From Arenicellales bacterium (GTDB taxonomy: Bacteria; Pseudomonadota; Gammaproteobacteria; BMS3Bbin11), in assembly GCA_029287915.1 (NCBI GenBank), contig JARFQE010000055.1, forward strand, positions 1 to 64,000: a stretch of DNA of 64,000 nucleotides. The letters are read 5' to 3'. Positions 9,852 through 34,550 of the stretch are shown here, piece after piece. How positions within the stretch are numbered: position 1 is the stretch's first letter; every line of letters starts with the position of its first letter. The translations under genes and the position numbers were made by a program. The notes under the pieces are model-generated. The model was given only the letters and a program-made list of their open reading frames with translations. It searched no databases and had not been told where the DNA came from.

Positions 9852-9881
9852 AACAGGAAACTTAAGATTTGATTGAGAAAA

Positions 9882-9906
9882 GGTGCTGCTGGTCAGCACC
9901 TTTTTT
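9882..9906 (+). terminator. Rho-independent terminator after DUF2892 gene
   Basis: A seven-base stem, ggtgctg (9882-9888) with cagcacc (9894-9900), encloses a five-base loop and is followed at once by six T. It should end the fnr/Crp/DUF2892 transcripts. The copZ-copA genes therefore need a promoter of their own in the next 30 bases, or depend on read-through. Confidence 0.85.
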
Positions 9907-29007: not shown

Positions 29008-29700
29008 ATGGCTAACGATTTCCTTATCGCCCCTTCAATCCTGTCCGCTGATTTCGCCAGACTCGGTGAAGAAGTGGATAATGTACTGGCATCCGGTGCC
29101 GATGTGGTTCATTTCGACGTCATGGATAATCACTATGTGCCAAACTTGACCATTGGGCCATTAGTATGCGAGGCATTACGCAAACACGGCGTTACTGCCG
29201 ATATAGATGTGCATCTAATGGTCAAGCCAGTAGATCGTATCATTCCAGATTTTGCCGCAGCGGGCGCCTCCTATATTACATTTCACCCTGAGGCTTCAGA
29301 GCACGTCGACCGGAGCCTACAATTGATTAAAAGTGAAGGATGCAAGGCCGGCCTGGTATTTAACCCGGCTACTCCACTGGATATACTTGAATATGTCATG
29401 GACAAAGTTGATCTGATTTTGCTTATGTCAGTAAACCCGGGCTTTGGCGGTCAGAGCTTCATCAATTCTGCTCTGGCAAAACTGCGCCAGTCTCGTAAAC
29501 TGATCGAGGCTTCCGGCAGAGATATACGTCTTGAAATTGATGGTGGCGTCAAAGTCGATAACATCCGTGAAATTGCCGAGGCCGGTGCGGATATGTTTGT
29601 TGCAGGATCAGCCATTTTTGGGGCAGCCAATGAGGCTGATCCTCACCACTATGAAACTGTGGTCTCTGCCATGCGTGCCGAGCTGGCCAAGACCAGTTAG
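29008..29700 (+). CDS. rpe: Ribulose-phosphate 3-epimerase
   Basis: 230 residues, TIM barrel. It interconverts ribulose 5-phosphate and xylulose 5-phosphate in the pentose phosphate and Calvin pathways. Motifs are [17 protein letters not shown] (N-terminal), [16 protein letters not shown] with the catalytic Asp and metal His, [18 protein letters not shown] (phosphate loop) and [10 protein letters not shown]. The ribosome site is CCAGGGAGTTTCAAG. It heads the conserved rpe-gph-trp run; gph begins three bases after its stop. Confidence 0.97.
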
Positions 29701-29703
29701 CAT

Positions 29704-30405
29704 GTGAAGATTGAATTGACTAGCGCACAAAAAATTAGTGTAAGCATGGTCATGATTGACCTCGATGGTACGCTCATCAATACTGCACCGGATCTGGCCG
29801 ACAGTGTTAATATTATGTTGCAGAAGATGGGTAGAGAGCCATGGCCGCTGGAGAAAGTGTCTGGCTGGATTGGTAATGGTGTTAGTAGACTGGTCAAACG
29901 CGCCCTGACAGACTCCATGGATGGTGAGCCTGATAGAGACGATTATGAAAAGGCTTATAACCTGTTTCTACAGGCCTATGGCGACAACGTCTCGGCAAAA
30001 AGCCGCCCTTACGACGGAGTAGTTTCAGGTCTGAATAAGCTCAAAGCAGCTGGTTTCCATTTGGCATGTGTAACCAACAAAGCAGAAGCCTTTACCTTGC
30101 CGTTGCTGGCTGATCTTAAACTAGACGGTTATTTCGAGCTGGTAGTTTCGGGTGATTCACTAGCACGAAAAAAACCCGATCCGTTGCCATTGATTTATGC
30201 CTGTGAATATTTCGGCATAACCCCTCAACAAGGCATACTAATAGGTGATTCGGCCAATGATGTAAAAGCTGCACTGGCAGCAGGTATGCATGTCATCTGT
30301 GTCAACTATGGTTACAATCAGGGCGTCGATCTAACTACCCTGCAGACTCAGGGTGTGATAGATTCACTGGACAAACTCGATCAGCAACTGTCATTGCTGA
30401 TTTAG
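29704..30405 (+). CDS. gph: Phosphoglycolate phosphatase
   Basis: 233 residues if read from GTG 29704; ATG 29746 (MVMIDLDGTL) is an in-frame alternative closer to the usual family start, with little ribosome-site support for either. HAD motifs are IDLDGTLINTAPDLAD (motif I), VTNKAE (motif II), KKPDPLPL (motif III) and GDSANDVKAALAAGM (motif IV). It dephosphorylates 2-phosphoglycolate, formed by Rubisco oxygenation or DNA repair. It begins three bases after rpe. The trp leader ORF starts 24 bases after its stop, so rpe-gph may read through into trp. Confidence 0.93.
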   Translation: MKIELTSAQKISVSMVMIDLDGTLINTAPDLADSVNIMLQKMGREPWPLEKVSGWIGNGVSRLVKRALTDSMDGEPDRDDYEKAYNLFLQAYGDNVSAKSRPYDGVVSGLNKLKAAGFHLACVTNKAEAFTLPLLADLKLDGYFELVVSGDSLARKKPDPLPLIYACEYFGITPQQGILIGDSANDVKAALAAGMHVICVNYGYNQGVDLTTLQTQGVIDSLDKLDQQLSLLI

Positions 30406-30429
30406 CAGTTATTTGGCGGAAACTAGTTT

Positions 30430-30477
30430 ATGGAAAACATGATCAAAAAACAGGAGGCATGGATCTGGCGATGGTGA
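30430..30477 (+). CDS. trpL: trp leader peptide with three Trp codons
   Basis: A 15-codon ORF reads MENMIKKQEAWIWRW and stops at TGA 30475-30477; ATG 30439 in the same frame gives the 12-residue form. Three TGG codons in the last five positions, alternating with Ile and Arg, are the mark of a ribosome-stalling attenuation leader. It lies 58 bases before trpE. GGCGGA, ten bases upstream of the first ATG, could be the ribosome site. Downstream sequence can pair in two ways: a 5-base hairpin over the stop (30477-30491), or aaacagga (30448-30455) with tcctgttt (30504-30511). No U-rich terminator is evident, so the exact mechanism is open. Confidence 0.75.
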   Translation: MENMIKKQEAWIWRW

Positions 30478-30511
30478 AGCGTTGAGCGCTTACGTCCGTT
30501 ATATCCTGTTT
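30477..30511 (+). promoter_or_regulatory. Possible trp attenuator secondary structures
   Basis: The sequence aagcg-ttgag-cgctt (30477-30491) forms a small hairpin that overlaps the leader stop. The stretch tcctgttt (30504-30511) is fully complementary to aaacagga in the leader coding part (30448-30455). A ribosome stalled at the Trp codons would cover the region between and change the balance. There is no strong poly-U tract before trpE. Confidence 0.4.
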
Positions 30512-30534
30512 ACAGTTTAAGGTGATGTTTTCCC

Positions 30535-32022
30535 ATGTTTTTGAAAAAATCTGAATTTGATTCCTATGCCGCTAGCGGCTATACACGCATACCTGTTGTG
30601 CGTGAAGTGCTGGCCGATCTCGATACTCCGTTAAGCACCTATATCAAACTCGCTGGCAGTGAGTATTCCTATTTATTTGAATCCGTCTCTGGCAGCGAGA
30701 AAGCAAGTCGTTACTCCATCATCGGCCTGTCAGCGAGACGACTATTTCGTGCTAGCGGTAATCAAGTAGAAATACTCGAGGATGGGGAGATTGTTGAATC
30801 CCTGACAGTCATTGATCCTCTAGAGGCAGTGCGTGAGTATCTGCAAAGATTCAAGGCTCCTGATATCGAAGATCTGCCTCGTTTCACTGGTGGTCTGGTC
30901 GGGTATTTCGCATACGATACCATTCGCTATATCGAGCCCAGCCTGGGCGAGAGCCGGCATCCAGATCCATTGCAGACACCTGATATTCTACTGATGGTGT
31001 CAGATGAAATTCTTATCTTTGACAAACTCAAAGGGCGTTTGTTTATAGTCATCAATGTCGATCCACGTGAGGAAAATGCGTGGGAGTCTGGTCAGCAGCG
31101 TATTGAAGAGCTGATAGGGCAGCTTGATAAGCCACTATCACATCAGCGTAAAGCCTCTACCTCCGTGGTAAGCGAAGATGATTTCCTTTCTGGTTTCACT
31201 CGGGAGGGCTATATGCAGGCTGTTGAGCGAGCGCGTGAATATATACGTGCTGGTGACATCATGCAGGTCGTATTATCGCAACGCATGAGCATTCCCTACC
31301 AGGCTAAAGCGCTGGATCTGTATCGAGCACTGCGTACGCTGAACCCTTCACCCTATATGTACTTCATGAACCTCGGTGATTTTCAGGTGGTCGGATCGTC
31401 ACCAGAAATTCTGGTGCAGGTGGATTCAGGTAAGGCCACAGTAAGGCCGATAGCTGGCACACGGCCTCGCGGTAAAACTGAGGCTGAGGATGTGGCAATG
31501 GAACAGGACCTGCTGGCTGATCCTAAAGAACTGGCTGAGCATCTTATGCTGGTTGATCTTGGACGAAATGACCTGGGCCGCATTGCTGAGATCGGTAGTG
31601 TAGAACTTACCGAACGCATGGTTATTGAACGTTACTCTCATGTTATGCATATTGTTTCCAATGTGGTCTGTGATATACGTAAAGAGTTTGATGCTATTGA
31701 TGTTCTAAGAGCCACTTTTCCGGCCGGTACAGTTAGTGGCGCGCCAAAAATCAGGGCGATGGAAATCATTGATGAACTGGAGCCGGTCAAAAGAGGCGTT
31801 TATTCCGGTGCAGTAGGTTATCTTGGCTGGAACGGAAACATGGATACAGCTATCGCTATTCGCACCTCGGTAATCAAGGATGGCATGCTCAATATACAGG
31901 TTGGTGCCGGCATAGTCGCTGACTCTCAACCCGATATGGAATGGGAAGAGACCCTGAATAAGGGTAGAGCAACATTCCGGGCTGTGGCAATGGCTGCAGG
32001 CGGTTTCAGGCAACTTAGCTAA
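30535..32022 (+). CDS. trpE: Anthranilate synthase component I
   Basis: 495 residues. It uses chorismate and ammonia (from TrpG) to make anthranilate, the first step of tryptophan synthesis. The N-terminal domain has the feedback-inhibition region SYLFESVSG (equivalent of the LLES Trp-binding motif). The C-terminal chorismate-binding domain shows [65 protein letters not shown] and [12 protein letters not shown] 30535 has AAGGTGATG upstream. It is followed by trpG after 11 bases, so component I and II are coupled. A leader peptide with Trp codons precedes it. Confidence 0.97.
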
Positions 32023-32033
32023 GGAGGCATAAC

Positions 32034-32612
32034 ATGTTGTTGATGATTGATAATTATGACTCCTTCACCTACAACCTGGTGCAGTACTTTGGGGAATTGG
32101 GTGCCGATGTTCACATACACCGGAATGATAAGATTAGCCTGGATGAAATAGAAGTGATGCAGCCGCAGAGAATCGTTATATCACCCGGCCCCTGTACACC
32201 AAATGAAGCAGGGATCTCTGTTGAAGTTATTAAACATTTCAGTGGCCGCGTGCCGATACTGGGCGTCTGCCTGGGTCACCAGAGTATCGGACAGGCCTTT
32301 GGTGGCAAAATCGTTCGTGCGAAAACCCTGATGCATGGCAAGATCTCGATGATCCATCATAATAACTCTGGTGTATTCAGGGGACTGCAAAACCCTTTGC
32401 AGGCGACTCGCTATCATTCACTGGTTATTGATCGTGAAACGCTTCCCGCATGCCTGGAAGTAACGGCCTGGACCGATGATGATGAGATTATGGGCGTGCG
32501 ACACCGGACACTGGATGTAGAAGGTGTACAATTTCATCCAGAATCTATTTTGACCCATCAGGGGCATGAACTACTGGCTAATTTTCTTGCAGAAAGAAAG
32601 GACGGAAGTTGA
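32034..32612 (+). CDS. trpG: Anthranilate synthase component II (glutamine amidotransferase)
   Basis: 192 residues. It supplies ammonia from glutamine to TrpE; many such proteins also serve PabB in folate synthesis. The type I amidotransferase triad is visible: nucleophile Cys in [15 protein letters not shown], and His and Glu in [11 protein letters not shown]. The N-terminal [20 protein letters not shown] is typical. The ribosome site is AAGGAGGC. It is followed by a 115-base spacer with inverted heptad repeats before trpD, so the trpEG and trpDC pairs may be expressed differently. Confidence 0.97.
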
Positions 32613-32613
32613 A

Positions 32614-32702
32614 AGTTCCAAGTTCCAAGCTCCAAGTTAAACCCGTATCGATTTTTTTGTCTTCTGTGTTTGCTTGGAACCTGGGACCTGGATCTTGGGG
32701 CT
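32614..32702. repeat. Inverted heptad-repeat element between trpG and trpD
   Basis: The left arm holds agttcca, agttcca, agctcca, agtt (32614-32638). The right arm holds gcttgga, acctggg, acctgga, tcttggg, gct (32672-32702). The arms are imperfectly complementary, so a long stem with an internal T-run is possible. The seven-base period matches the element at 5087-5187. Confidence 0.65.
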
Positions 32703-32727
32703 AAAAAACGACTAAAGGATTTAAGTT

Positions 32728-33744
32728 ATGGACATGCAAACCGCCATTCAATATGTAATCTCGGACAAAAACCTGGCCGCGAGCGAGATGCGTCATGTTA
32801 TGCAGTTGATTATGACTGGACAGGCCACGCCAGCTCAGGTCGGCGGATTCCTGATAGGCCTGCGCTGCAAAGGTGAAACCGTCGATGAGATCGCAGCTGC
32901 TGCACAGGTGATGCGTGAACTTGCCGATCACGTCAATGTTACGCCTGATTATCTAGTGGATACCTGTGGTACCGGGGGTGACTCCAGTAATACATTTAAT
33001 GTCTCTACCAGTTCTGCATTTGTTGTTGCAGCAGCCGGTGGCAGGGTTGCCAAGCATGGTAATCGTTCCATATCTAGCAACAGTGGCAGTGCAGACGTGC
33101 TGGAAGCTGCCGGTGTCAGGCTTGACCTGACAGCTGAGCAGGTGGCGGAGTGCGTCAATGAAATCGGCGTGGGTTTCATGTTCGCGCCTTTACATCACAG
33201 TGCTATGAAACATGCCATCGGTCCGCGCAAGGAGATGGCGGTTAGAACTATTTTCAATATCCTCGGCCCGTTAACAAATCCTGCAGGTGCACCAAACCAG
33301 GTGTTGGGCGTGTTCGCAAATGAGCTGCTGGAACCGTTGGCAGAAGTTTTGTCCAGGCTGGGCAGCCGTCATGTACTGGTAGTACATGGAGAAGACGGCA
33401 TGGATGAGATCAGCATCTCTGCACCCACTCATGTTGCCGAACTAAATGACTCAGCGATCAGCACCTATACCGTGACGCCTGAACAATTTGATATGGCAAC
33501 TCAGCCTATAGAAAAAATCAAAGTCAATGATATCGAAAGCAGTCTTCGAATGATGAATGATGTGCTGGCAAATGTAGATGGTGCGGCCAGGGATATCGTT
33601 GCCCTGAATGCCGGTGCTGCCATTTACGCCAGTGGGCTTACCGATGAGCTCGATACAGGTGTAAAACTAGCGCTGGAAGTGCTCTCATCTGGTGCTGCAG
33701 CCGATCGATTACAGCAACTCGTCAATATGACCAATCAGTTCTGA
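32728..33744 (+). CDS. trpD: Anthranilate phosphoribosyltransferase
   Basis: 338 residues. It joins anthranilate to PRPP. The phosphate-binding and active-site motifs are [37 protein letters not shown] and [19 protein letters not shown]. The late motif [10 protein letters not shown] holds the Mg-binding Asp and Glu. The single-domain form, without a fused TrpG, is usual here. The start is ATG 32728 with AAAGGATTTAAG upstream. Its stop overlaps the trpC start (TGATG), implying coupled translation. Confidence 0.97.
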
Positions 33745-34550
33745 TGAGCAAGGTCGCAGATATTCTATTAAAGATACTCGATACCAAGGCTCGAGAAGTC
33801 GAGCAGAGTAAACAACAAGTTTCGTTACAGCAGATCAAGTCCGAACTTGAAAGCATTGCACCCACCAGGGATTTTGTCGGTGCCATCAGGGAACGTGTCG
33901 AGGCAGGCAGGGTGGCAACCATTGCAGAAATCAAAAAAGCCTCTCCAAGCAAGGGCGTCATACGCGAGGACTTTAACCCGGCACAGATTGCACGCAGTTA
34001 TGAAAACGGCGGAGCTGCCTGTCTGTCGGTGTTGACCGATGTAGAGTATTTTCAGGGTGATGATGCCTATCTGCAGCAGGCTAAAGCGGCTTGTATGTTA
34101 CCGGTATTACGCAAGGAATTTATCATAGACCCCTACCAGGTCTATGAATCCCGTCTGATCGGTGCTGATTGCATCTTGTTGATTGTGGCTGCACTGGATG
34201 ATCTACAGCTACGGGAATTTACCAAACTGGCACATTCGCTTGATATGGGGGTACTGGTAGAAGTGCATGATGCAGAAGAGTTGTCGCGTGCGTTGATGCT
34301 TAACACAACCCTAATAGGTATCAACAATCGAAATCTGCGTACCTTTGAAACCACGCTGCAGACGACGATTTCACTGCTTGCTGGGATACCTGATGACCGG
34401 ATTGTCGTCACCGAGAGTGGTATACATGATCGTTCCGATGTAGAGAGTATGCTGGCACATAATGTGCGTGCTTTCCTGATTGGCGAAACCTTTATGCGTG
34501 CACAACAGCCGGGTGATAGACTGGCACAATTGTTCGAGGGGCAATTATGA
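33744..34550 (+). CDS. trpC: Indole-3-glycerol phosphate synthase
   Basis: 268 residues, single-domain TIM barrel without a fused TrpF. It closes the indole ring. Motifs are [19 protein letters not shown] with the catalytic Lys, [32 protein letters not shown] and [11 protein letters not shown]. It ends with the usual phosphate loop ([13 protein letters not shown]). It overlaps trpD by one base and the OsmC gene by four (ATGA). trpF, trpB and trpA are not in the window, as is usual when the trp genes are split. Confidence 0.97.

Follow-up and report, generated by a model that had tools for sequence, protein, structure and literature searches.

The window (the whole stretch of 64,000 nucleotides that was analysed, from an Arenicellales bacterium) carries rpe and gph followed by trpE, trpG, trpD and trpC, all on the plus strand; the last three are likely the downstream part of an operon with trpE. 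A sequence-only reading of this DNA had proposed a Trp leader with three Trp codons just before trpE, starting 24 bases after gph. Both points hold: gph ends at 30405, and an open reading frame is found at 30430-30477 with TGG codons at 30460, 30466 and 30472. The features of the region are listed here.

29008-29700, plus strand: rpe (TIGR01163), preceding gph
29704-30405, plus strand: gph (phosphoglycolate phosphatase; NCBIfam NF009695 and TIGR01449, above cut-off)
30430-30477, plus strand: trp leader reading frame, MENMIKKQEAWIWRW*, ending W-I-W-R-W (from sequence and conservation in order relatives)
30432-30444, plus strand: 5' arm of the clamp in the leader initiation region, consisting of GGAAAACAU (30432-30440) and AUC (30442-30444) (MFE)
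30448-30455, plus strand: 5' arm of the 8-bp helix, AAACAGGA (predicted partner 30504-30511)
30456-30470, plus strand: 5' arm of the Trp hairpin, built of the Trp codons (pairs with 30497-30510 in the predicted fold)
30460-30474, plus strand: Trp codons, TGG at 30460, 30466 and 30472 (Trp-Ile-Trp-Arg-Trp; from sequence, W-R-W in all order relatives)
30474-30493, plus strand: small hairpin over the leader stop codon (30474-30482 with 30486-30493; MFE)
30497-30510, plus strand: 3' arm of the Trp hairpin (predicted fold)
30504-30511, plus strand: 3' arm of the 8-bp helix, TCCTGTTT, shared with the Trp hairpin
30519-30524, plus strand: putative trpE Shine-Dalgarno sequence AAGGUG, 10 nt before the ATG (from sequence)
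30521-30533, plus strand: 3' arm of the clamp, consisting of GGU (30521-30523, the end of the Shine-Dalgarno) and AUGUUUUCC (30525-30533, just before the trpE ATG) (MFE)
30535-32022, plus strand: trpE (anthranilate synthase component I; TIGR00564, 579.6 bits, above cut-off), the proposed regulated gene
32034-32612, plus strand: trpG
32728-33744, plus strand: trpD
33744-34550, plus strand: trpC

The 24-nt gap after gph leaves little room for a promoter, and gph shows no excess of promoter-like matches over chance (10 over the region against 6.6 +/- 3.0 expected). A search of the genome (G000, 95.7% complete) yielded no match to TrpR or TRAP (genes trpR and mtrB), with the E. coli and B. subtilis controls detected; the leader is thus the visible Trp sensor that is left. 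Further downstream, the trpG-trpD gap (32613-32727) contains an inverted repeat (CCAAGTTCCAAGCTCCAAG ... CTTGGAACCTGGGACCTGGATCTTGG), likely a repeat element inserted inside the trp operon.

The leader reading frame and its relatives

The leader reads ATG GAA AAC ATG ATC AAA AAA CAG GAG GCA TGG ATC TGG CGA TGG TGA and ends 57 nt before trpE. Conservation of the TGG codons had been set beforehand as the refutation test, and the leader peptide is kept with its Trp codons in all five of the other order-level relatives that have the region. The peptide is identical to that of the window in L003 (MENMIKKQEAWIWRW), MESMIKKQEAWIWRW in L004 and L006, MEDMIEKQEAWIWRW in L005 and MIYKQEIKTWRW in L007, the most distant relative. 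Because the first ATG (30430, present in 5/6 sequences) is absent from L007 and the second (30439) is present in 6/6, the leader may be a 12-residue peptide, MIKKQEAWIWRW, starting at 30439.

Two side observations concern the leader DNA. The stretch between leader and trpE in L003 (L003:1330-1490) holds an inserted dispersed repeat, about 155 nt long. It has inverted ends (AGGTCACCTGTATTAATT ... AATTAAAACAGGTGGCC) and copies in G006, G001 and G003; three genomes give 25 to 40 or more matches to it, G000 and G005 just 3. The repeat resembles a MITE whose copies multiplied in part of the genus; in L003 it lies within a regulatory leader. Secondly, a DNA match to the leader at G000:C10:709-730 (L098) falls on a pcm-like methyltransferase gene, at its beginning (ENMIKQQVRTW against ENMIKKQEAWIW, 95% over 22 nt). 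We took this match as chance, but it might be a clue to how the leader arose.

Across Gammaproteobacteria, a Trp-rich (W-R-rich) leader end precedes trpE in 40 of 74 loci, against 2.0 expected from shuffled upstream regions, and in 39 of the 102 loci of a class-wide sample. The usual end is Trp-Arg(-Trp)-stop. In most trpE leaders an Arg codon directly follows a Trp codon (W-R), including leaders with a single Trp codon that end TGG CGA TAG.

Predicted fold of the leader RNA

The predicted MFE fold turns the whole leader RNA into one long hairpin: 30430-30540 folds at -36.8 kcal/mol (z = -4.15), which none of 200 shuffles equals, and the five order sequences give folding z between -3.0 and -4.8. 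At its base the clamp pairs 30432-30440 with 30525-30533 and 30442-30444 with 30521-30523 (MFE). The 9-bp part of this clamp lies over the trpE start region and had been overlooked by the sequence-only reading. A further predicted helix joins 30448-30451 to 30515-30518, and the Trp hairpin has a stability of about -20 kcal/mol. The clamp helix is 98% paired over five sequences; AUGUUUUCC is invariant in all six sequences and retained even after the L003 insertion.

Two other elements had been named before. The small hairpin over the leader stop is indeed present in the MFE structure, and the 8-base complement between 30448-30455 and 30504-30511 is exact. An 8-bp inverted repeat alone is unsurprising, as about 11% of shuffles have one as long or longer. 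The helix is kept in the genus and not in L007, where AAACAG pairs with another CTGTTT.

Standard pairs fill 92% of the pair cells of the order alignment, against 45-50% once partners are slid. Covariation within the order is weak: two pairs, both in the Trp hairpin of L007, are changed on both sides, which 26 of 500 shuffles match, and permuting the L007 differences gives P of about 0.09. Conservation inside the order does not settle the structure alone; the covariation and permutation tests lend it weak support, and our reading does not depend on them. Across loci the post-stop hairpin by itself has little excess stability (mean z -0.9), and the excess signal appeared only with leader start and trpE start both included.

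The absence of a U-rich terminator was borne out as well. No intrinsic terminator is found within 30406-30535 by a scan that finds the one of E. coli (-13.4 kcal/mol, 7 U), and the idea of one in the window leader was rejected; there is no U-tract after the hairpin. Canonical terminators are present elsewhere in the window, e.g. at 9876-9906. Of the earlier proposal of an unusual attenuator, the leader with its stalling logic is supported, and the framing as control of transcription is revised: the stronger signal comes from base pairing between the leader start and the trpE initiation region and points to control of translation.

Predicted sequestration of the trpE start across Gammaproteobacteria

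We expressed sequestration as the cost of opening positions -18 to +11 around the start codon, compared with dinucleotide shuffles of the upstream part. By this measure trpE ranks first of the 49 gene starts in the window (z 2.4, against an average of -0.26 for the other 48). The five order sequences tested have z of 2.4-4.2, and masking of the first Trp codon relieves 4.1-7.1 kcal/mol in these (0.1-0.4 in shuffles). Other short-spacer gammaproteobacteria, taken as a first set, average z 1.9 (P<0.1 in 16/27), against 0.12 for leaderless trpE (n=17).

A class-wide sample, mostly of one genome per family and with leaders called from the peptide alone, gave similar tendencies. It is largely, though not wholly, independent, as a few genomes recur from the earlier set (L157 and L153 resemble L039 and L035), and the spacer limit (-100 to -40) was picked after the first set and then used on the second. 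Leader loci with a short spacer (n=37) have a mean z of 2.84, with P<0.1 reached in 27 and not in 10, against 0.46 for leaderless trpE (n=52), a mixed group that includes loci with gph coding sequence abutting trpE (Mann-Whitney p=3e-7). Relief is 3.4 kcal/mol for leader loci, 0.2 when shuffled and 0.65 for leaderless loci (Mann-Whitney p=9e-7). Complementary runs, counted with no energy model, point the same way (7.68 against 6.38 in shuffles, p=1.4e-5).

Leaders that end more than 100 nt from trpE show no sequestration (mean z -0.11, P<0.1 in 0/17), and neither do E. coli trp (z -0.2, relief 0) and L053, the single Pseudomonadaceae locus here. A separate group of Cellvibrio-type loci (L047, L050, L052, L055, L056, L057, L078 and L085) has leaders that end R-W-R-R with one Trp codon, 150-200 nt from trpE and without trpE sequestration; possibly a different mechanism serves the same leader.

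For most leader loci the predicted partner of the trpE start lies at about -60 to -33 relative to the leader stop, in the leader's own start region, and the spacer is the partner of the Trp codons. The clamp sequences differ between families: in L176 CCATCACCTGGC pairs with GCCAGGTGATGG, in L137 CTCACCGT with ACGGTGAG. The best evidence of function here is that complementarity is retained although the sequences are not alike. We would give even odds to the wider reading that in a large part of Gammaproteobacteria trpE is under a translational start-to-start clamp, sensed via a Trp-Arg-Trp leader, instead of transcription attenuation, with the complementarity re-formed in dozens of families that have little common sequence. 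The same reading would explain why the element is missing from RNA family libraries, given how little sequence the families share.

Ribosome position, alternatives and known systems

A stalled ribosome was modelled by masking 30 nt. In the window the free RNA needs 17.5 kcal/mol for opening of the trpE start, which falls to 8.3, 9.6 and 12.8 kcal/mol with Trp codon 1, 2 or 3 in the A site and to 14.0 with the ribosome at the leader stop; a second ribosome at the leader start lowers it to 4.4-7.8. The 8-bp helix was earlier suggested to swap, and the predicted folds agree: it is complete with the ribosome at the stop, keeps 7/8 pairs when Trp 3 occupies the A site and is absent with the ribosome at Trp 1 or 2, where its arm AAACAGGA is masked. 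In this model the helix can act as a lock of the Trp-replete state.

The most probable reading (about 0.6 by our estimate) is that the locus is a translational trp attenuator, in which the leader hairpin would clamp the trpE start and the leader ribosome would sense the Trp supply. What is generally expected of a translational attenuator is found in the predictions: the downstream start is sequestered in the unoccupied RNA, and a stall at the sensing codons lowers this sequestration. The hairpin base would join the leader start region to the trpE start region, and its upper part the Trp codons to the spacer. With ample Trp-tRNA the ribosome would reach the leader stop, leaving AAACAGGA free to hold TCCTGTTT; on its release from the stop the hairpin would zip closed over the trpE Shine-Dalgarno. 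With scarce Trp-tRNA it would stall at Trp 1 or 2, covering the Trp codons and AAACAGGA, and further ribosomes would queue on the leader start, so that the hairpin could not close and trpE would be translated. Leader conservation, the lack of a terminator, sequestration and the cheaper opening under a masked ribosome come from the computations; from them we infer stalling, queueing, zippering and a Trp response.

Some observations speak against control of translation. The clamp covers the leader's own start too, and the model does not account for its reopening after closure. A stalled ribosome by itself leaves most of the clamp arm uncovered, and full modelled opening needs a ribosome at or near the leader start. 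Across 46 loci, too, the greatest relief (about 8 kcal/mol) comes from a footprint on the leader start, with about 3-4 kcal/mol from a footprint on the Trp codons. A stall therefore probably acts either jointly with ribosomes in a queue or by keeping the hairpin from zipping up. The weak covariation within the order, the L003 insertion and the 10 of 37 leader loci short of P<0.1 also count against this reading. Moreover, L007 has a terminator-like hairpin followed by a U-run.

This last observation bears on the alternative that fares best, transcription attenuation, in which the Trp-codon hairpin would be a weak intrinsic terminator blocked by the stalled ribosome, so that trpE mRNA and not its translation is controlled. 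The hairpin is stable enough to suit this role, weaker tails than the U-run of L007 follow it in L004-L006, and terminator-like sites occur in 8 of 31 loci (2.1 expected). Attenuation is also what regulates E. coli trp and, as cited in PMC8297930, P. putida trpE and trpGDC (Olekhnovich and Gussin 2001). Nonetheless, we judge this unlikely: the window hairpin is without a U-tract, scanning of the kind that detects the E. coli terminator gives terminator-like sites in 5/37 leader loci of the class sample and none in 32/37, and the pairing with the trpE start is left unexplained.

Somewhat less likely again is Rho-dependent attenuation, in which the unoccupied spacer or untranslated trpE start would let Rho end transcription when Trp is present, and the clamp would matter by stopping trpE translation. 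Untranslated RNA is a natural Rho target, an intrinsic terminator is absent, and leader peptides that act through Rho are known, as in E. coli tna. On the other hand, a spacer of 57 nt, short and folded, is a poor loading site, no sequence feature singles out Rho, and such termination may be a mere consequence of the translational mechanism. A constitutive structure that lowers trpE translation or couples trpE to the leader without Trp sensing is very improbable. Trp codons show a strong excess at one fixed position ahead of a gene for Trp synthesis, and in the window the stalling positions relieve more than the stop position, even though any ribosome close to the leader start, and not just a Trp stall, gives the biggest predicted opening.

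Trp-codon leader peptides before trpE are textbook knowledge, with the trp attenuator as the case of transcription attenuation. Like the E. coli type (RF00513, Trp_leader), the proposed translational attenuator has a short leader with clustered Trp codons before trpE, and ribosome position would select between RNA folds. It differs in that the window lacks a terminator with U-run, in its spacer (57 nt against about 90 in E. coli) and in a fold that covers the trpE start, unlike that of the E. coli leader. Rfam searches, run at the gathering thresholds and at relaxed ones, returned chance matches only and no Trp_leader match (E. coli control 93.1 bits). In B. subtilis rtpLP-rtpA (anti-TRAP), too, three Trp codons in a short leader frame govern translation of the next gene. 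There the leader stop adjoins the downstream Shine-Dalgarno, which the terminating ribosome blocks; in the window the stop is 57 nt away and blocking would be by RNA pairing.

In P. putida, attenuation of trpE and trpGDC (known here from the citing paper alone) likewise involves a gammaproteobacterial trpE regulated through a leader, and in Actinobacteria missing attenuator parts have been noted (PMC1262725). We found no description of a translational trp attenuator at trpE in Gammaproteobacteria in the literature searched, which covered few subscription papers; it is likely, though not proven, to be new. If this form is common at trpE in many gammaproteobacteria, the textbook mechanism would be one lineage's solution among several, and searches for terminators or conserved RNA sequence will have missed such attenuators. 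The prediction is precise enough to be checked with a simple reporter. Leaders that bring about translational attenuation by freeing a Shine-Dalgarno are known for other signals (PMC13236596). In translational attenuators of the erm kind and mycobacterial cysteine leaders (PMC11264731, PMC13236596) a stalled leader ribosome frees a sequestered Shine-Dalgarno, as it would here; their signal is an antibiotic or cysteine, whereas in the window it would be Trp, acting on one continuous hairpin that joins both start regions.
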